From positions 1 through 23,851 of IMG/VR virus record IMGVR_UViG_3300022821_000113: 23,851 nucleotides of DNA; one strand, written 5' to 3'. Numbering within the stretch: the first letter of the stretch is position 1; each line of letters opens with the position of its first letter. Made by a program: the position numbers and the translations under genes. This document shows, one piece after another, positions 17,824-23,759 of the stretch. The stretch comes from a virus. Under the pieces are notes generated by a model. It was not told the origin of the DNA and ran no database searches. It saw only the letters and a program-made list of their open reading frames with translations.

Positions 17824-20800
17824 ATGGCAAACGAAACTCCAACAATCCCTCAGATCCACAAGCCCCACGGCACTGGTTCGGATACGACGGTCCTGTACTC
17901 GACCAACGCATTCAGCCAGACCATCACGGGCACAGCGGATGAACTGACCAAGCGAGTCCTCGCCAACGGCAGTGACGCTGGGATGGACTTCAACGCCTTC
18001 CCGCTCGATGATGGAAGCTCTGGCACCACTGGTACAACCGGAGGTACCGGGACTACGGGCACCACGGGCTCTACCGGATCCACCGGTTCGACAGGGTCAA
18101 CAGGCGGCATTGTACTCTCAGATGGCGAGTGGAGCTTGACACTTCCCTCGAACCCGCAGCTTGTGGAGGGGCAGAACGTCTTCCTCATCCAGGCGGAAGG
18201 GTACGACGGCTCCCTCAGCACGGCAGCTACGCTCACCATTCATTACGTCTCTGACGGCTCCCTTGGGTTCCTCATTGACGCACCAACCGGCATCAAGATT
18301 GACCGGTACGCGAACCGCGTGGAGTTCCTGGCTACCCACATTGAGGACGTGCTGCTCGCTGATGTAGAGCGCGACACGATGACCGTAGGATTCAACTTCT
18401 ACTCAGCTTCCGAGCCGGGTGGCGGACTTGCGGGCTACACACTGCTCAACACCCGCCTCGTAGATGACTACAAAGAGGTGGTGGAGAAGGTAGTGTCCAC
18501 GGTGGAAACCACCGACCGAGAAGTGGACCCAGACGACAGCAACGTCATCATCGACACGAGCATCAACGTTCAGACCCTGAACAAGTTCTACGTGTACGCC
18601 TTCAACCACGTCCGCGCCAACGACTCCACAGCGACGGACTACCCGCAGCAGGATGCGGCGCAGGCTCTGTTCAGCCCTATCGCACTGACCCAGGAGATCT
18701 ACTACGTCGCTACGGCATTGGCCTACGACCCAAGCCTGGCCATTGAGTACGAGAGCACCTTCTCGAGTGAGCTTGTAGGACTGCCGTTGGTGCTGAGCAC
18801 GCGGGTCAAGGACCTCACGCCCCGCAACCTGAACACCATCCAGCAGGGACTCATCACCGAGATCCTCAGGGTTCAGTCGAACATCGATGTGCGCCCCGGC
18901 TCAGTGACCCGTGACATCCACGTAGACCCGCCCGCGTGGGAGATGAACCGCATCTGGCTGCTCATCGACTTCATGAGCCGAGCCCAGAGCTTCCTGACGC
19001 TCATTCAGATCGATGACCCTCAGCAGACGGGCACCAGCATCGCCTACAAGGAATCGAACTACAAGCAGGCACTCGCCCTTGCGGTAGCTCTGACCGAAGC
19101 TGAGGTGCAGACGCTCATCGACGAGACGTTCACCAAGCTCGCCATGAACTCGCTCACTGAGCGTATGGGAGCAACCAAGGCCATCGGACAGGCCGTCATG
19201 CGCCGGACGTCGGCCCCGAGTAAGGACTTGGTTGTGGATGCGGGCACCACACTGACAAGCCGAGGAGATAGCGCTGCGGGCACCAGCTCGCAGAGTTTCG
19301 TGACCTCTGCGAGCAAGACCATGTCAGCGGCCAATGGTAGCTCGTATTTCAACGCGAACACGGGCTTCTACGAGCTGACCGTCTCCATCTCTGCCGTGAC
19401 CGCAGGGGCGACGGGAAACGTGGCGGCGGGAGCCATCACATCTACCTCAGCCTCCGGGTTCAGCAGTGTCGTCAACAACGAGGCCACCACCTTTGGACAG
19501 GATCAGGAGAGCAACCTCAGTCTCGCTGAGCGAGCCATGCTCTCCTACGTCAGTGTGGACCGTGGCACCTCAGGAGGCTACCTCCGCACGGCACTTGACA
19601 CCTCCGGCGTACACCGCGCCCGTGTTGAGGAAGCGGGTGAGAGCCTGATGATGCGGGACTGGGACGATGTACGTGAGAAGCACATCGGCGGCAAGGTGGA
19701 CCTCTGGATCCAGGGCACGGCAATCATCGAGGTGCAGGAGACCTTTGCCTTCCAGTACCTCCAAGACCTCAACGTGCGTTTTGAAGCAGTGGGCGAGGCC
19801 TCGCTCCTGACCTTCCGGACGACTTCTGCCGCAGTGACCGAGGCCACTCCGATCTTCGCCATGCTGAACGATGCTTCCTTGGGCTACGGGCTGAGGAACA
19901 CTTCTACGGGACAGGACTTTGACCTGAGCGGCGTGACGATCACGGACTACCGCACCATCCAGCTTGACGTGAACATTCCTCAGCCTGATGTGGATGAAGA
20001 TGACATCCTCATCGGCGACTACAAGTACCGGGACAGCGATCCGTTCGAGCCCGTAGTGCAACCCATCCGAGATATCTCCGGCATCACAAGCTCTGCAAGC
20101 ACGTTGACCACGGAGAACTACTCGCTCAGCAAGACCGAAGACCCACTCCTGTTCGGCTACTCCGTTGAGGCCAGCGACCAGATCAACGTGGTACAGGCGA
20201 ACGGGGTTCCCACAGGCGACCCGACCACGGTGACGGACGAGGGTGTAGTGCTCGTAGGCAGCACCTCCGTCAAGCTCGGATCTGTAGGCGTCGACGAGAC
20301 GACCATCGTGATCACCAACACGGCGGGCACCGTCACCTACACCACCGACCAGGGGGATTCTGCAACACCCGACGTGTTCCTCACCGGAGGAGACCTAACC
20401 ACGGCTCCGAAGATCGCCCGCAACGAGTCAGGCACCATTCTCAACGGTGAGAAGGTGATTGTGGCCTACACGGCTGAGGAGAACTTCACCGTATCCTACT
20501 CCGTGAACAACGTGCTCCAGCTCGTAGCCGCCAAGGTGGACGTGATGCGGCATGTGACGGCGGATGTGCTGGTGAAGCAGAGCATTGAGAACGAGGTGGA
20601 GATCTCGGCGACCGTAGTGCTCAAGGACAATGCAGATCAGGCGGACGTGGACATTGACATCCGCACCAACCTCTCCCACCTCGTGAACCGTCTCCAGATT
20701 GGAGAGGATCTGCACCAATCGGATGTGATCCACGCCATCGAGGAAGTGAATGAGGTGAGCTACGTGGTGCTCCCACTCACCCTGATGCACAAGAGCGACG

Positions 20801-21288
20801 GCTCCCTGATCCTCCGTGACGCTCTGGACTCCGACTCCACAAAGGTAGTTGAGGGACAGGAAGCGGACGTGTGGCTCATCAACCAGCAGCTCACCTTCAA
20901 CACCTCAACGGGTGGAGGACCCAACACACTTCACCGTGGCGTCTTCATGGACGACCAGCCGATGACGCTGTTTGAGCTTGAGAGCGACTTCTGCGAGCTG
21001 GAGAGCAACCCCGGCTCCGCTCTGATCGTTGGACGTTTGGGCTTCGACGTATGTGACTGCGGCCTGGGCGGTTTGCTGTTGGATGCTGGCATTGTGACAG
21101 CGAACCGCGTGTTGGTGAGTTTGCCGAAGGGAGAAACGCCTGAGGACCACACCTGGGCGGCTTCCTACATCGTTGATGGCGAGAGCGGCACGGGTGACAT
21201 TGAGGCTTTCGTGATGGAGTACCTCACACTCGGCCAGGTGCAGATGACCTACACCGGCACGGGCGATGAGTACGGCAACGATTTCTGA
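17824..21288 (+). CDS. Large baseplate wedge protein, gp6/gpJ-like, with collagen-like segment and Ig/FnIII-like insert
   Basis: This 1154-residue protein starts with a short N-terminal segment (1-60), then nine consecutive Gly-X-Thr triplets (67-93). An Ig-like stretch follows (about 98-145; NVFLIQAEGYDG, TLTIHY), then an FnIII-like region (about 150-210; NFYSASEPGGG). From about residue 320 it has gp6/gpJ features: VRPGSVTRDIHVDPP, helices around TLIQIDD, and a later domain with VDVMRHVTADVLVK and IRTNLSHLVNRLQIG, in the style of wedge proteins. Two wedge copies with gp25-like protein would form a baseplate arm. The C-terminal quarter contains DVCDCG and SDFCELES. It follows the gp25-like gene after a three-base gap. 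Its TGA is the left half of TGATCA, shared with the stop of the facing gene. Confidence 0.8.
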   Translation: MANETPTIPQIHKPHGTGSDTTVLYSTNAFSQTITGTADELTKRVLANGSDAGMDFNAFPLDDGSSGTTGTTGGTGTTGTTGSTGSTGSTGSTGGIVLSDGEWSLTLPSNPQLVEGQNVFLIQAEGYDGSLSTAATLTIHYVSDGSLGFLIDAPTGIKIDRYANRVEFLATHIEDVLLADVERDTMTVGFNFYSASEPGGGLAGYTLLNTRLVDDYKEVVEKVVSTVETTDREVDPDDSNVIIDTSINVQTLNKFYVYAFNHVRANDSTATDYPQQDAAQALFSPIALTQEIYYVATALAYDPSLAIEYESTFSSELVGLPLVLSTRVKDLTPRNLNTIQQGLITEILRVQSNIDVRPGSVTRDIHVDPPAWEMNRIWLLIDFMSRAQSFLTLIQIDDPQQTGTSIAYKESNYKQALALAVALTEAEVQTLIDETFTKLAMNSLTERMGATKAIGQAVMRRTSAPSKDLVVDAGTTLTSRGDSAAGTSSQSFVTSASKTMSAANGSSYFNANTGFYELTVSISAVTAGATGNVAAGAITSTSASGFSSVVNNEATTFGQDQESNLSLAERAMLSYVSVDRGTSGGYLRTALDTSGVHRARVEEAGESLMMRDWDDVREKHIGGKVDLWIQGTAIIEVQETFAFQYLQDLNVRFEAVGEASLLTFRTTSAAVTEATPIFAMLNDASLGYGLRNTSTGQDFDLSGVTITDYRTIQLDVNIPQPDVDEDDILIGDYKYRDSDPFEPVVQPIRDISGITSSASTLTTENYSLSKTEDPLLFGYSVEASDQINVVQANGVPTGDPTTVTDEGVVLVGSTSVKLGSVGVDETTIVITNTAGTVTYTTDQGDSATPDVFLTGGDLTTAPKIARNESGTILNGEKVIVAYTAEENFTVSYSVNNVLQLVAAKVDVMRHVTADVLVKQSIENEVEISATVVLKDNADQADVDIDIRTNLSHLVNRLQIGEDLHQSDVIHAIEEVNEVSYVVLPLTLMHKSDGSLILRDALDSDSTKVVEGQEADVWLINQQLTFNTSTGGGPNTLHRGVFMDDQPMTLFELESDFCELESNPGSALIVGRLGFDVCDCGLGGLLLDAGIVTANRVLVSLPKGETPEDHTWAASYIVDGESGTGDIEAFVMEYLTLGQVQMTYTGTGDEYGNDF
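18022..18102 (+). repeat. Nine Gly-X-Thr codon triplets (collagen-like segment, codon-diversified)
   Basis: Inside the gp6-like gene, 27 codons encode nine perfect Gly-X-Thr triplets (GTT GTT GGT GTT GTT and four GST). Codons are strongly varied: all four Gly codons, three or more Thr codons, and the four Ser positions use TCT, TCC, TCG and TCA once each. Thus the amino-acid repeat has no matching DNA repeat. This fits selection on the protein and/or against recombination between repeats. Confidence 0.9.
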
Positions 21289-21291
21289 TCA
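21286..21291. other. TGATCA palindrome forming both stop codons of convergent genes
   Basis: The plus gene ends with TGA at 21286-21288 and the minus gene ends with TGA read from 21291-21289. Zero bases lie between them. No rho-independent hairpin with a T-tract was visible around this junction, so a shared bidirectional terminator is not supported. Confidence 0.9.
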
Positions 21292-22203
21292 GCTACCGCA
21301 GCTCCGAGTAGTACCTCCGCACCCTGATGTAGAGCTTGCCACCGAGGCCCGCACTGGCTCGGGCACTGGGAGCTCGTAGGGCTCGTCGGTGGTCCATCCG
21401 GTAGTCATCCTACCGTCGGGCTGCAGAATCACCTCGTACACAAGGCCGAGATCATCGCTTGGCTCGAGCGTGCTGTACTTCCAATGCACGCGCACCCCGT
21501 CGATGGTCATGACGAAGTCCTTGCACGTCGGGCAGCCATGCTCCACCGTGGCCTCTTCGCTGAAGTTGTCCTGCAACGGGTGAGTGTCGAGCGTGCCGTG
21601 AAGCTTGCGGAGGAATACCGCTCCGGCTCCAACGCTCTTGCACTTGGCGAGGAATGCGCGGGTGTATGCCTTGTCGGCTCCTACCCACTCTCCGAGGATC
21701 ATCTCTCCCCACCAGATGCCGAGCACGGCGCTGATGGTCACGTCGATTCCAACCTCAGCCATCTTGGTGCAGAAGGTCTCGGTCTCTTCCCAGTTGATGG
21801 TCTTGCAGTCTCCGAAGGCCGCACGGTTCTCAAGCTCGTTGAGGGCGTGACGTGAGAGGTTGATGTGGTCCACCACCCCGTCGAACAGGTCCCTCAGCTT
21901 GTCGAAGTTCTTGGGAGACCCCCCGTTGGTGGTCAGCACCACTCGGTCGAAGCGCTCCTTGTGGAGCTCGATCACACTCAGCGCACGCTTGAGGTAGGGG
22001 CTGAGTACAGTCTCTCCTCCGGTGAGGGAGAGGGTCTTGAACTGTGGGGGCAGGGCTCCCAGCACGCGGTTCAGCTCAGATGCCCACGCCTTGAGGCGTA
22101 GCTCATTGTCCGAGCGTTTCCAATAGCAGAACCCACAACGAGCCTGACAGGCTCCGGGTAGGACGATGCTGAAGTTGGGGTTTGCGATGGTCTCAGTCGG
22201 CAC
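21289..22203 (-). CDS. Radical SAM protein with C-terminal CxxC
   Basis: This 304-residue protein has the radical SAM cluster motif C19-x3-C23-x2-C26 (CQARCGFCYWKR), the SAM-binding GGE (62-64; LTGGET) and a following strand, TTNGG (91-95). A later CPTC (224-227) in a segment with DFVMTIDGV could bind a second cluster or zinc. Cys295 and Cys302 lie in a Gly/Ser/Thr-rich tail of uncertain value. Enzymes of this kind reduce SAM to make a 5'-deoxyadenosyl radical; the substrate here is unknown. The start is GTG at 22203 with AAGGAG seven bases upstream, and it overlaps the upstream gene by 11 nt. It is last in the four-gene minus-strand cluster, so it is probably cotranscribed with the genes before it. 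It is not QueE-like by motif spacing. Confidence 0.9.
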   Translation of the reverse strand: MPTETIANPNFSIVLPGACQARCGFCYWKRSDNELRLKAWASELNRVLGALPPQFKTLSLTGGETVLSPYLKRALSVIELHKERFDRVVLTTNGGSPKNFDKLRDLFDGVVDHINLSRHALNELENRAAFGDCKTINWEETETFCTKMAEVGIDVTISAVLGIWWGEMILGEWVGADKAYTRAFLAKCKSVGAGAVFLRKLHGTLDTHPLQDNFSEEATVEHGCPTCKDFVMTIDGVRVHWKYSTLEPSDDLGLVYEVILQPDGRMTTGWTTDEPYELPVPEPVRASVASSTSGCGGTTRSCGS

Positions 22204-22480
22204 TGTCTATCTCCTTCAGCCAGAAGTCCACCTCCATCACGTCGCGGTTTTTGCCGCTGCCCTTGATGAGGTAGCCGTGGAAGCGGACTGTATGCAGCCA
22301 CTCGGGTTTGAACTGATGCGGTCGGTTGTAGCCGTCGAACTGGAATCCGGTCCAGTTCACACCGTCGCCTGTCCCTTTGACACGAAGATCAATGAGCCCG
22401 CGCCCACTGTTCGTGATTTCGAGTTCGAACTGGGGCTTGGTCCCGTCCATCGGGTAGCAGGTGATGGTGCGTCCGATCAT
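22193..22480 (-). CDS. Hypothetical beta-rich small protein (95 aa)
   Basis: I choose the ATG at 22480, which overlaps the upstream stop as ATGA, giving 95 residues; the open frame upstream to 22528 lies inside the preceding gene. The product is beta-rich (MIGRTITCYP, then FELEITNSG, LIDLRVKGTG, VNWTGFQFDGY, and VMEVDFWLKEID). It contains one Cys and several aromatic residues. No membrane segment or known motif is seen. Its position directly before the radical SAM gene makes a partner, substrate or accessory subunit plausible, but that is inference only. Confidence 0.6.
   Translation of the reverse strand: MIGRTITCYPMDGTKPQFELEITNSGRGLIDLRVKGTGDGVNWTGFQFDGYNRPHQFKPEWLHTVRFHGYLIKGSGKNRDVMEVDFWLKEIDSAD
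22211..22216 (-). promoter_or_regulatory. Strong Shine-Dalgarno for the radical SAM gene
   Basis: AAGGAG on the minus strand, seven bases before GTG 22203, lies inside the end of the 95-residue gene. It is among the best ribosome sites in the window and supports the GTG start. Confidence 0.75.
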
Positions 22481-22698
22481 GAGGCAGCTTCCCACTTGCG
22501 CATGATGGCGTCCTTGGCGTCGTAGCACCCGGCCTCATCAGCGATGATGCAGTAGCACCCCACGAGGTCCGCGCTCTCTGAGCGCGTCCAGTCTTCCCAG
22601 TCCTCGAGCCATGCCACGGGGAAGTCCTGCTTGCGCGCCTCTTCGATGACGGTTTCGATCTGGTCGGTGGTGCTGTCTTGTCGCTGGGCGAGGGCCAT
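22477..22698 (-). CDS. Hypothetical small acidic protein with Cys cluster (73 aa)
   Basis: The ATG at 22698 with GGAG six bases upstream is preferred over the GTG at 22743, which has no clear SD. The 73-residue product has an acidic N-terminal helix (TTDQIETVIEEARKQ), then PVAWLEDWEDWTRSES, a short Cys segment (GCYCIIADEAGCYD; Cys48, Cys50, Cys58) and a C-terminal helix (DAIMRKWEAAS). It could be a small metal-binding protein, or a peptide substrate of the neighbouring radical SAM enzyme; neither is shown. Its stop overlaps the next start as ATGA. Confidence 0.55.
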   Translation of the reverse strand: MALAQRQDSTTDQIETVIEEARKQDFPVAWLEDWEDWTRSESADLVGCYCIIADEAGCYDAKDAIMRKWEAAS

Positions 22699-22704
22699 GT
22701 TGTG

Positions 22705-22708
22705 CTCC
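22705..22708 (-). promoter_or_regulatory. Shine-Dalgarno deciding the ATG 22698 start
   Basis: GGAG on the minus strand, six bases before ATG 22698. The alternative GTG at 22743 has no purine-rich box at the right distance, so the shorter product is preferred. Confidence 0.6.
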
Positions 22709-22754
22709 GTGCTGCACAGGTAACGGACGGAGCGCCTGATCACTCAGAGGCTAT

Positions 22755-23759
22755 TCAGGATGTAGCGCGGTCCCGTGCAACAGCCTGCATGTCGTCGTCA
22801 CGGTCAGTCTCGTCAACAATCTCTTCGCCAACAACGATCTCAAGGACGTCCTCGAGGGTCACCAAGCCATGTACCGCGCCGTACTCTCCCCGCACGAGAG
22901 CCATGTGGTTCCGCGCGGGTAGGAAGTGCCGCATGAGCTCATCGGCGGGCATGTCGGGGCTGACAAAGGCGGCAGGCACAGGCTTCGGTAGCAGTCCGCC
23001 ATTCATGAGCGAGAGGAGCAAGTCCCTCAGCATCACCACGCCCACCACGTCGTCGAGCGTCTCACCCACAACGATGATGCGGGAGTGCTGTGACGCCTTG
23101 ATCTGGGCCTCCTGCTCCTTGGCAGTCAGGTCAGCGCGGAGGTAGGTCATCGCGGTACGGGGAGTCATGATGTCGCTGGCGGTCAGGTCGTTGAGGCTGA
23201 ACACCCGGAGGATCATGTCGCGCTCATCCTCCTCAATCTGGTCCTCACGTCCGGCTTCCCGCACCATGAAGCGCAAGGTAGCCTCGTCCGCTGCCGTAGC
23301 ACCGTTGGGTCCGCCAATGAGCTTGGTCACCTGTTCGAGCATCCAGAGTGCCGGGGTCAGCAACCACGAGATCGCACTGAGCGGTCGTGCAATCAGGAGG
23401 CTGATGCGCTCCGGGTAGTTGGTGCCGATGCTCTTGGGGATGATCTCTGCGAAGAGGATGATGGCGAAGGTCAACACGGCTGAGAAGGCACCGAGGTAGG
23501 CACTTCCGAGCACGTCAGTAGCAATCCCACCAACCACGATGGAGCCGACGATGTTGGCGATGTTGTTGAGAACCACGATGGCAGCAATGGGCCTGTCGAG
23601 GTTGTCTTTCAACCGGAGCAGTATGGCGGCTGTTGAGCCACCTTCCTCCGCGAGCTGGCGAACACGCACGTTGGGCATTGCCATCAAGGCGGCTTCAGAG
23701 CCGGAGCAGAGCGCCGAGGCAAGTACAACTGCGGTTACAGCGATTACAAGGAGTATCAT
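22755..23759 (-). CDS. CNNM/CorC-type membrane protein: DUF21 plus paired CBS domains, without the CorC_HlyC domain
   Basis: This 334-residue protein starts with a DUF21 (CNNM) transmembrane domain (about 1-150): hydrophobic segments near 1-28, 57-80 and 87-110, with SGSEAALMAM, LNNIANI and FAEIIPKSIGTNYPE, all hallmark motifs. A linker helix follows, then a paired CBS region (about 195-320) with DIMTPRTAM, HSRIIVV, VMLRDLL and EYGAVHGLVTLEDVLEIVVG followed by DETD. Family members export or regulate Mg2+ (CorC/PaeA/MpfA/YhdP relatives), with CBS domains sensing Mg-ATP. It ends soon after the second CBS motif and lacks the C-terminal CorC_HlyC domain of most bacterial homologues. No obvious SD lies close to ATG 23759 (GGAG is 15 bases upstream). 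It heads the minus-strand cluster. Such a transporter gene is unexpected in a phage. Confidence 0.9.
   Translation of the reverse strand: MILLVIAVTAVVLASALCSGSEAALMAMPNVRVRQLAEEGGSTAAILLRLKDNLDRPIAAIVVLNNIANIVGSIVVGGIATDVLGSAYLGAFSAVLTFAIILFAEIIPKSIGTNYPERISLLIARPLSAISWLLTPALWMLEQVTKLIGGPNGATAADEATLRFMVREAGREDQIEEDERDMILRVFSLNDLTASDIMTPRTAMTYLRADLTAKEQEAQIKASQHSRIIVVGETLDDVVGVVMLRDLLLSLMNGGLLPKPVPAAFVSPDMPADELMRHFLPARNHMALVRGEYGAVHGLVTLEDVLEIVVGEEIVDETDRDDDMQAVARDRATS

Follow-up and report, generated by a model that had tools for sequence, protein, structure and literature searches.

The window analyzed here is the whole of a 23,851-bp virus record. On its minus strand it carries a complete gene, from ATG to stop, for a 334-aa CNNM/CorB protein (22755..23759) whose start codon aligned with the starts of four other family members. 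In Pfam searches the protein matched CNNM/DUF21 (PF01595) over residues 8-179 at E=1e-42 (146 bits; cut-off 28.4) and CBS (PF00571) at E=5.9e-10 (39.8 bits; cut-off 24), with two CBS stretches at E<=0.01. The C-terminal CorC_HlyC domain (PF03471) found no match in it at E<=0.001 or at E<=0.01. The nearest PDB sequence was archaeal MtCorB (7m1t; E=3.2e-37 over residues 3-311), followed by 7m1u (7e-35) and then by CorC-type CBS domains. Alignment to MtCorB and TpCorC, conservation and a structure model place the DUF21/CNNM membrane domain at residues 1-150 (23310..23759, minus strand), and Pfam, alignment, conservation and model place the CBS pair at residues 191-313 (22821..23189, minus strand). 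An earlier note made from the bare sequence had named a CNNM/CorC-type protein of DUF21 and CBS domains that lacks CorC_HlyC; the identity proved far beyond chance, and the missing domain is indeed missing. It is very probable that the protein is a CNNM-type cation transporter. PHROGs already holds a family for such genes (phrog_10948, 'unknown function'; E=3e-52), and the NCBIfam models PRK11573, GldE, PaeA and CorC all matched well under their cut-offs, GldE (TIGR03520) with 135 bits against 376.

MtCorB binds Mg2+ through Ser21, Ser25, Ser71 and Glu111 as well as the main chain at Ser21 and Gly110, the Ser71 position is Asn in bacteria, and the pi-helical turn of MtCorB includes Pro114 and Lys115 (PMC8242095). 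In our alignment, S21, S25, S71, E111, P114 and K115 of MtCorB correspond to S15, S19, N65, E105, P108 and K109 of the window CNNM, which has the CNNM/CorB Mg2+-site pattern S, S, N/S, E and the EIxPK turn. Alignment to MtCorB and TpCorC, the ligands reported in PMC8242095, conservation and the model thus led us to predict a Mg2+ site of S15, S19, N65 and E105 (codon 23445-23447, minus strand) with the pi-turn P108-K109. Conservation was read from an alignment of 107 rows: the window protein, two Lak copies, four copies labelled as phage and 100 from genomes, three of these genome rows being repeats of others. S15, S19, E22, E105, P108 and K109 were invariant in all 107 rows and N65 was identical in 105, bearing out the conserved Ser, Asn and Glu cation ligands envisaged for the DUF21 core. 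For the CBS pair, the ATP site described in PMC8242095 points to T199, S226, R227, T301 and D304 as predicted Mg-ATP residues. R227 and D304 were invariant (107/107), T199 was present in 106 rows, the T301 position was T or S in 107/107 and the S226 position S or T in 102/107. Phe233 of MtCorB corresponds to His225, and His is found likewise in 48/107 rows.

The predicted model of the window CNNM (mean pLDDT 92, pTM 0.60) had 7m1t_A as its top Foldseek match (E 2.6e-20, TM 0.52). VIA-align paired 302 residues with 7m1t_B (Z 21.4) at an rmsd of 9.8; single domains fit and the whole-chain superposition was poor, this rmsd indicating that the two domains of the model and of 7m1t_B do not superpose as one body. 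Alignment to 7cfh_B gave Z 19.0 and rmsd 2.2 over 164 residues, the membrane-domain structure 7cff gave Z 17.1 and rmsd 3.1 over 150 residues, and CBS-pair structures aligned to residues 177-314 of the model. At the level of its sequence, the window CNNM keeps the Mg2+-site and key Mg-ATP residues of the solved CNNM/CorB structures. MtCorB (7m1t) and the bacterial TpCorC (7cfg/7cff, 7cfh) share its fold and these ligands at about 28-34% identity, whereas native MtCorB has a C-terminal CorC domain that the window CNNM lacks (PMC8242095).

The window is identical (100%, full length) to positions 120179-144029 (reverse) of IMGVR_UViG_3300023296_000874, a contig of 257,533 bp and 59.5% GC that is classed as viral in IMG/VR. 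Because the whole window matches inside this contig, the CNNM gene is interior to it and not a contig-end artefact. A host chromosome or a chimeric contig end is thereby ruled out, and the earlier placement of the gene in a phage genome stands. Phage genes flank it on both sides: baseplate/tail-type genes on one, and on the other a 690-aa gene whose homologues neighbour a baseplate-wedge-type gene in other viral contigs, with DNA polymerase A farther off. Besides this family A DNA polymerase, the contig encodes a topoisomerase in which Topoisom_bac, Toprim and Top1 zinc domains were matched. It also has a weak tape-measure match and a gene for a baseplate-hub-type protein (E=3e-11 to phrog_430; Gp5_trimer_C slightly below its cut-off). 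A 1154-aa protein (17824..21288, plus strand), classed as baseplate-wedge-type from protein matches and the comparison of viral loci, shares 33% identity over 90% with a protein from a 485-kb phage known only as uncultured; its matches to proteins of Tunturi_5 and phage G that are annotated as baseplate wedge subunits are weaker. The contig gave no match to terminase phrog_2, and no clear capsid or terminase was seen among ten other large ORFs, so that phage identity rests on the other genes and on viral relatives. No tRNA was found in the contig, and PF03420 gave nothing anywhere and is uninformative. PF01595 was matched once in the 257,533 bp. The GC3 of the CNNM gene (0.75) resembles that of five large opposite-strand phage genes (0.735-0.768), as expected of a long resident. 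The earlier sequence-only note named the window CNNM correctly, and the phage location of the gene is on firmer ground than that note could establish.

Between the 1154-aa and 690-aa genes lie 3,192 bp that form an opposite-strand cassette. Upstream of the CNNM gene and just outside the window, this cassette holds a 143-aa ORF (L002:9399-9830, plus strand) that is weakly 2H-phosphoesterase-like (tRNA_lig_CPD at E=5e-4, under the cut-off; HMT and HVT motifs in the translation). The CNNM gene is followed downstream by an 88-aa ORF (22477..22743, minus strand), an overlapping 111-aa ORF (22193..22528, minus strand) and, as the last cassette gene, one for a 304-aa radical SAM protein (21289..22203, minus strand; PF04055, E=3.7e-12). 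Pfam, PHROGs and NCBIfam searches found no family for the 88-aa and 111-aa ORFs, and Pfam found none for the 690-aa protein, which is encoded outside the window. The radical SAM protein matched the viperin model weakly (30.8 bits against a cut-off of 180) and by this measure is not a viperin. A search for sigma-70-like promoters gave 0 sites in the cassette and 0.7 expected in shuffles.

The 1154-aa protein is encoded at eight viral loci including the 257,533-bp contig, and six of the other seven span the junction, where homology to the 690-aa protein is confined to its N-terminal part, at about residues 20-270. The 690-aa homologue begins at most about 45 bp after the 1154-aa homologue in L025 (DNA-identical to L030), L026 and L029; in L027 (identical to L028) the gap is about 440 bp and holds two small ORFs. 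No cassette protein had a match in the seven relative loci. Since the flanking genes adjoin, or nearly so, in relatives without the cassette proteins, we take the cassette to be an insertion in this lineage. PF01595 was likewise absent from all seven relative phage records (14 to 358 kb; several are fragments, and two pairs share identical stretches), which indicates that phages of this kind do not carry the CNNM gene as a constant component. The idea of the cassette as a travelling unit gained no support: in a scan reaching close relatives only, the radical SAM protein had no viral locus besides its own.

The missing CorC_HlyC domain had been interpreted as a streamlined version of the protein. 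Among the best 80 of 585 confirmed loci of our genome scan, where bacterial identity to the window CNNM reached 49-50%, 74 relatives were 320-379 aa long and 77 were shorter than 400 aa; three had at least 400 aa. A Pfam scan of 62 family members below 400 aa, the three long ones lying outside it, found CNNM and CBS domains in all 62 (the window protein, 60 bacterial proteins and one from a Lak-type contig) and CorC_HlyC in none. As PF03471 is carried by none of the 61 homologues, its absence does not reflect streamlining by the phage, and this part of the earlier interpretation has to be abandoned: the short form is common in bacteria. Longer frames related to CNNM, of about 420-550 codons, are present in the bacterial genomes as well. 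Phylum scans, which scored at most five candidates per genome, matched 85 of 386 genomes at E<=1e-40 in the phylum of a Cyanothece hit (33 at 41-49% identity, E<=2e-79) and 57 of 387 in that of a Rubritalea hit (four at E<1e-80). Relatives from a Rivularia MAG (L040), Cyanothece (L042) and Rubritalea (L041), with 49%, 44% and 45% full-length identity, share the two-domain layout without CorC_HlyC. Unlike the window, the flanks of L040-L044, some of them short, held no phage gene by eye in ORF lists. By its description, S. aureus MpfB resembles the window CNNM in having CNNM and CBS domains and no C-terminal extension and differs from it in being chromosomal and in the sigmaB regulon (PMC6711546).

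In an 88-row tree, the window copy belonged to a 13-row clade (SH-aLRT 100) of Cyanobacteria, Verrucomicrobia, Armatimonadota, Lentisphaera and a few others, including the copy of a T4-like contig (L037) and the long-branched copy of a staphylococcal phage/provirus record (L020); the Lak copies lay among Bacteroidales. A 54-row tree recovered a 28-row clade with the window copy (100/100) and a clade of Lak and Bacteroidales (100/100); the exact neighbour of the window copy was unsupported and its branch was long (1.14). AU tests rejected a joint clade of window and Lak (p 0.0003), also with L037 added (6e-6). The phage copies thus do not form a clade of their own, a possibility raised earlier: the window copy goes with Cyanobacteria/Verrucomicrobia and the Lak copies with Bacteroidales. 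The rejection of a window-Lak clade implies at least two captures, and since window and L037 as sisters were not rejected (p 0.069), two or three are possible. A clade of the window and 12 cyanobacterial rows was not rejected either (p 0.11), though it was not demonstrated. Some caution applies to these trees, in which the end branches of the window and L037 copies are long, half of the columns (50%) are empty for L037 and the Lak rows have a deviating composition. The exact window lineage comprised one sequence only in the collections searched. The gene seems to be an old capture whose bacterial donor belonged to the branch of the subfamily with Cyanobacteria and Verrucomicrobia, and this capture seems independent of the similar genes in Lak megaphages.

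Other phage-borne copies exist. The phage collection held 66 records matching the window CNNM, all below 60% identity and 15 of them Lak genomes; we inspected seven matching regions, two Lak and five others. The CNNM genes of the Prevotella Lak megaphages (L017, L018) are phage-borne like the window gene, encode the short form and keep the Mg2+ ligands, but they share only 32-33% identity with it and are nested in Bacteroidales as a separate capture. Four of the five non-Lak regions (two Escherichia phage records, Wolbachia WO and MT837186) had bacterial neighbours by annotation or by eye, and in phiSP44-1 the CNNM gene lies at the end of a prophage record. Further true phage copies may exist among Listeria, Salmonella, Acinetobacter, Enterococcus, other Staphylococcus, Pseudomonas and other 'Bacteriophage sp.' records. 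The L037 copy lies on the 76-kb contig IMGVR_UViG_3300015263_000962, which is T4-like with a T4-type major head protein (phrog_138, E 3e-81), portal (2e-76) and terminase (2e-46). It resembles the window CNNM in being phage-borne, at 37% identity and in the same broad clade, but has only 177 aa because the contig end cuts it; the two contigs have 2/313 ORFs in common at E<=1e-3, the CNNM gene and one other. The CNNM genes of two further viral contigs may be host flank: that of L120 lies beside tail genes and groups with Vreelandella, and that of L121 sits on a long branch. Calling this family not a standard phage gene was therefore fair, but the case is not unique, given the 15 Lak records, the T4-like contig and phrog_10948.

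Among the matches listed in open-licence PMC, we found no paper on phage CNNM genes. The words magnesium and transporter are absent from the main text of PMC13037316, PMC11165621 and PMC8093824, and PMC12619734 names the gene in no passage, its two 'corc' matches including the surname Corces. In the literature examined, the only mention of a phage-encoded Mg2+ transporter is a line in PMC8346664 that lists the magnesium transporter K03284 among Lak core families. Both Lak records that we searched (Lak-A2 and Lak-B1; L146, L147) carry a CorA-family gene as well as the CNNM gene, a possible import/export pair. The CorA family had no match in the 257,533-bp contig.

Mg2+ sets the activity of the ribosome, the polymerase and packaging, and a lytic phage probably changes the amount of free Mg2+. 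S. aureus cells that have lost MpfA contain more Mg2+, a loss for which MpfB compensates if overexpressed or mutated; the role of MpfB in Mg2+ export is minor, and for MpfA the authors could not exclude a regulator instead of an exporter (PMC6711546). CorC/MgpA lower cell Mg2+ (PMC12421838), and TtCorB moves Mg2+ directly in liposomes, a transport that is probably electroneutral antiport (PMC8242095). How CNNM proteins act, and in which direction, has been disputed, with efflux, influx and indirect action all reported (PMC8242095), and a CorC-domain protein of Vibrio was reported in K+/H+ exchange (PMC12421838). From the effects of MpfA and MpfB and the direct transport by TtCorB, we infer a Mg2+ efflux that would be tuned by Mg-ATP. 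On balance we lean, by a little, towards the view that this jumbo phage carries a functional, anciently captured short-type CNNM/CorB protein that would serve as an ATP-sensing Mg2+ efflux valve in infection. The window CNNM would dimerise in the host inner membrane, its CBS pair would bind Mg-ATP, and it would export Mg2+ through the electroneutral antiport that has been proposed for prokaryotic relatives. When a large phage infects its host for a long time, free Mg2+ would have to be held in range; the breakdown of ribosomes, host nucleic acids and ATP would free Mg2+, and the CNNM could vent the excess. Whether the net effect during infection is Mg2+ export we judge to be evenly balanced.

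The earlier note had the gene adjust host Mg2+ for assembly, and the window CNNM might accordingly raise or retain Mg2+ for virion assembly, packaging and ribosomes. Some authors report CNNM influx (PMC8242095), and the pairing of CorA and CNNM in both Lak records means that other phages may control Mg2+ uptake. Mutants of CNNM or CorC in prokaryotes, however, accumulate Mg2+ or are Mg2+-sensitive (PMC6711546, PMC12421838), and the contig of this phage is without a CorA match. Control of Mg2+ is the plausible part of that proposal, and supply for assembly is the weaker reading, which we hold to be unlikely because the characterised bacterial relatives lower cell Mg2+. We give the same low rank to export of another cation, such as a polyamine, Co2+ or Mn2+. 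PaeA, a CNNM-domain relative, exports polyamines and shares the CNNM and CBS domains (PMC12421838), and its NCBIfam model (NF052568) gave 127 bits; this score is far under the cut-off of 500, and PaeA has the CorC domain (PMC12421838) that the window CNNM lacks. Slightly less probable again is a passenger gene that hitch-hikes in the cassette and brings the phage no benefit, as the absence from the seven related records and the other cassette genes, which have no clear Mg2+ link, would allow; yet the ligand positions are kept at only 49-50% identity to the nearest bacterial protein (best 80 of 585), the composition matches the phage and other large phages hold copies of their own. Exclusion of competitors, by interference with a receptor for phages or bacteriocins or, through mixed dimers, with host CNNM proteins, would fit the dimeric state of CNNM proteins (PMC8242095) and the dependence of plantaricin EF sensitivity on a CorC protein (PMC6854853), but is very improbable: nothing in the sequence points there, and the transport residues, unneeded by a decoy, are kept.

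That large phages with little else in common captured such genes independently makes it plausible that the gene brings a selective benefit. As a protein the window CNNM is ordinary; such genes were captured more than once by dissimilar large phages, which hints that Mg2+ control helps such viruses during infection. A wider and much more tentative idea, which we think rather doubtful at present, is that giant and T4-like phages repeatedly and independently recruited short ATP-sensing CNNM proteins as a Mg2+ valve. Such valves would vent the Mg2+ set free by the collapse of host nucleic acid and ATP pools and would form a general, unrecognised layer of takeover, balanced in Lak phages through the CorA-family gene.

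Several minor observations were made along the way. The phage contig encodes a 693-aa protein with matches to families of Nudix hydrolases and to part of a portal family (L012:8044-10125, minus strand), a 774-aa glycosyltransferase (L016:10590-12914, minus strand) and a protein with DFP and class II aldolase domains (L004:11712-13259, minus strand). The T4-like L037 phage has a radical SAM gene near its CNNM gene on the other strand (L037:3089-4570). In the staphylococcal phage/provirus records L020, L036 and L038, a CNNM gene of the short type lies close to or at one of the ends, and an attachment site may be nearby. In Lak-B1, a 387-aa ORF with 7 recoded stops (L017:6058-7221) repeats the C-terminus of the preceding gene and contains, by eye, what we take to be LAGLIDADG-like motifs; it looks like a homing endonuclease insertion, and in Lak-A2 the same gene ends without this ORF.
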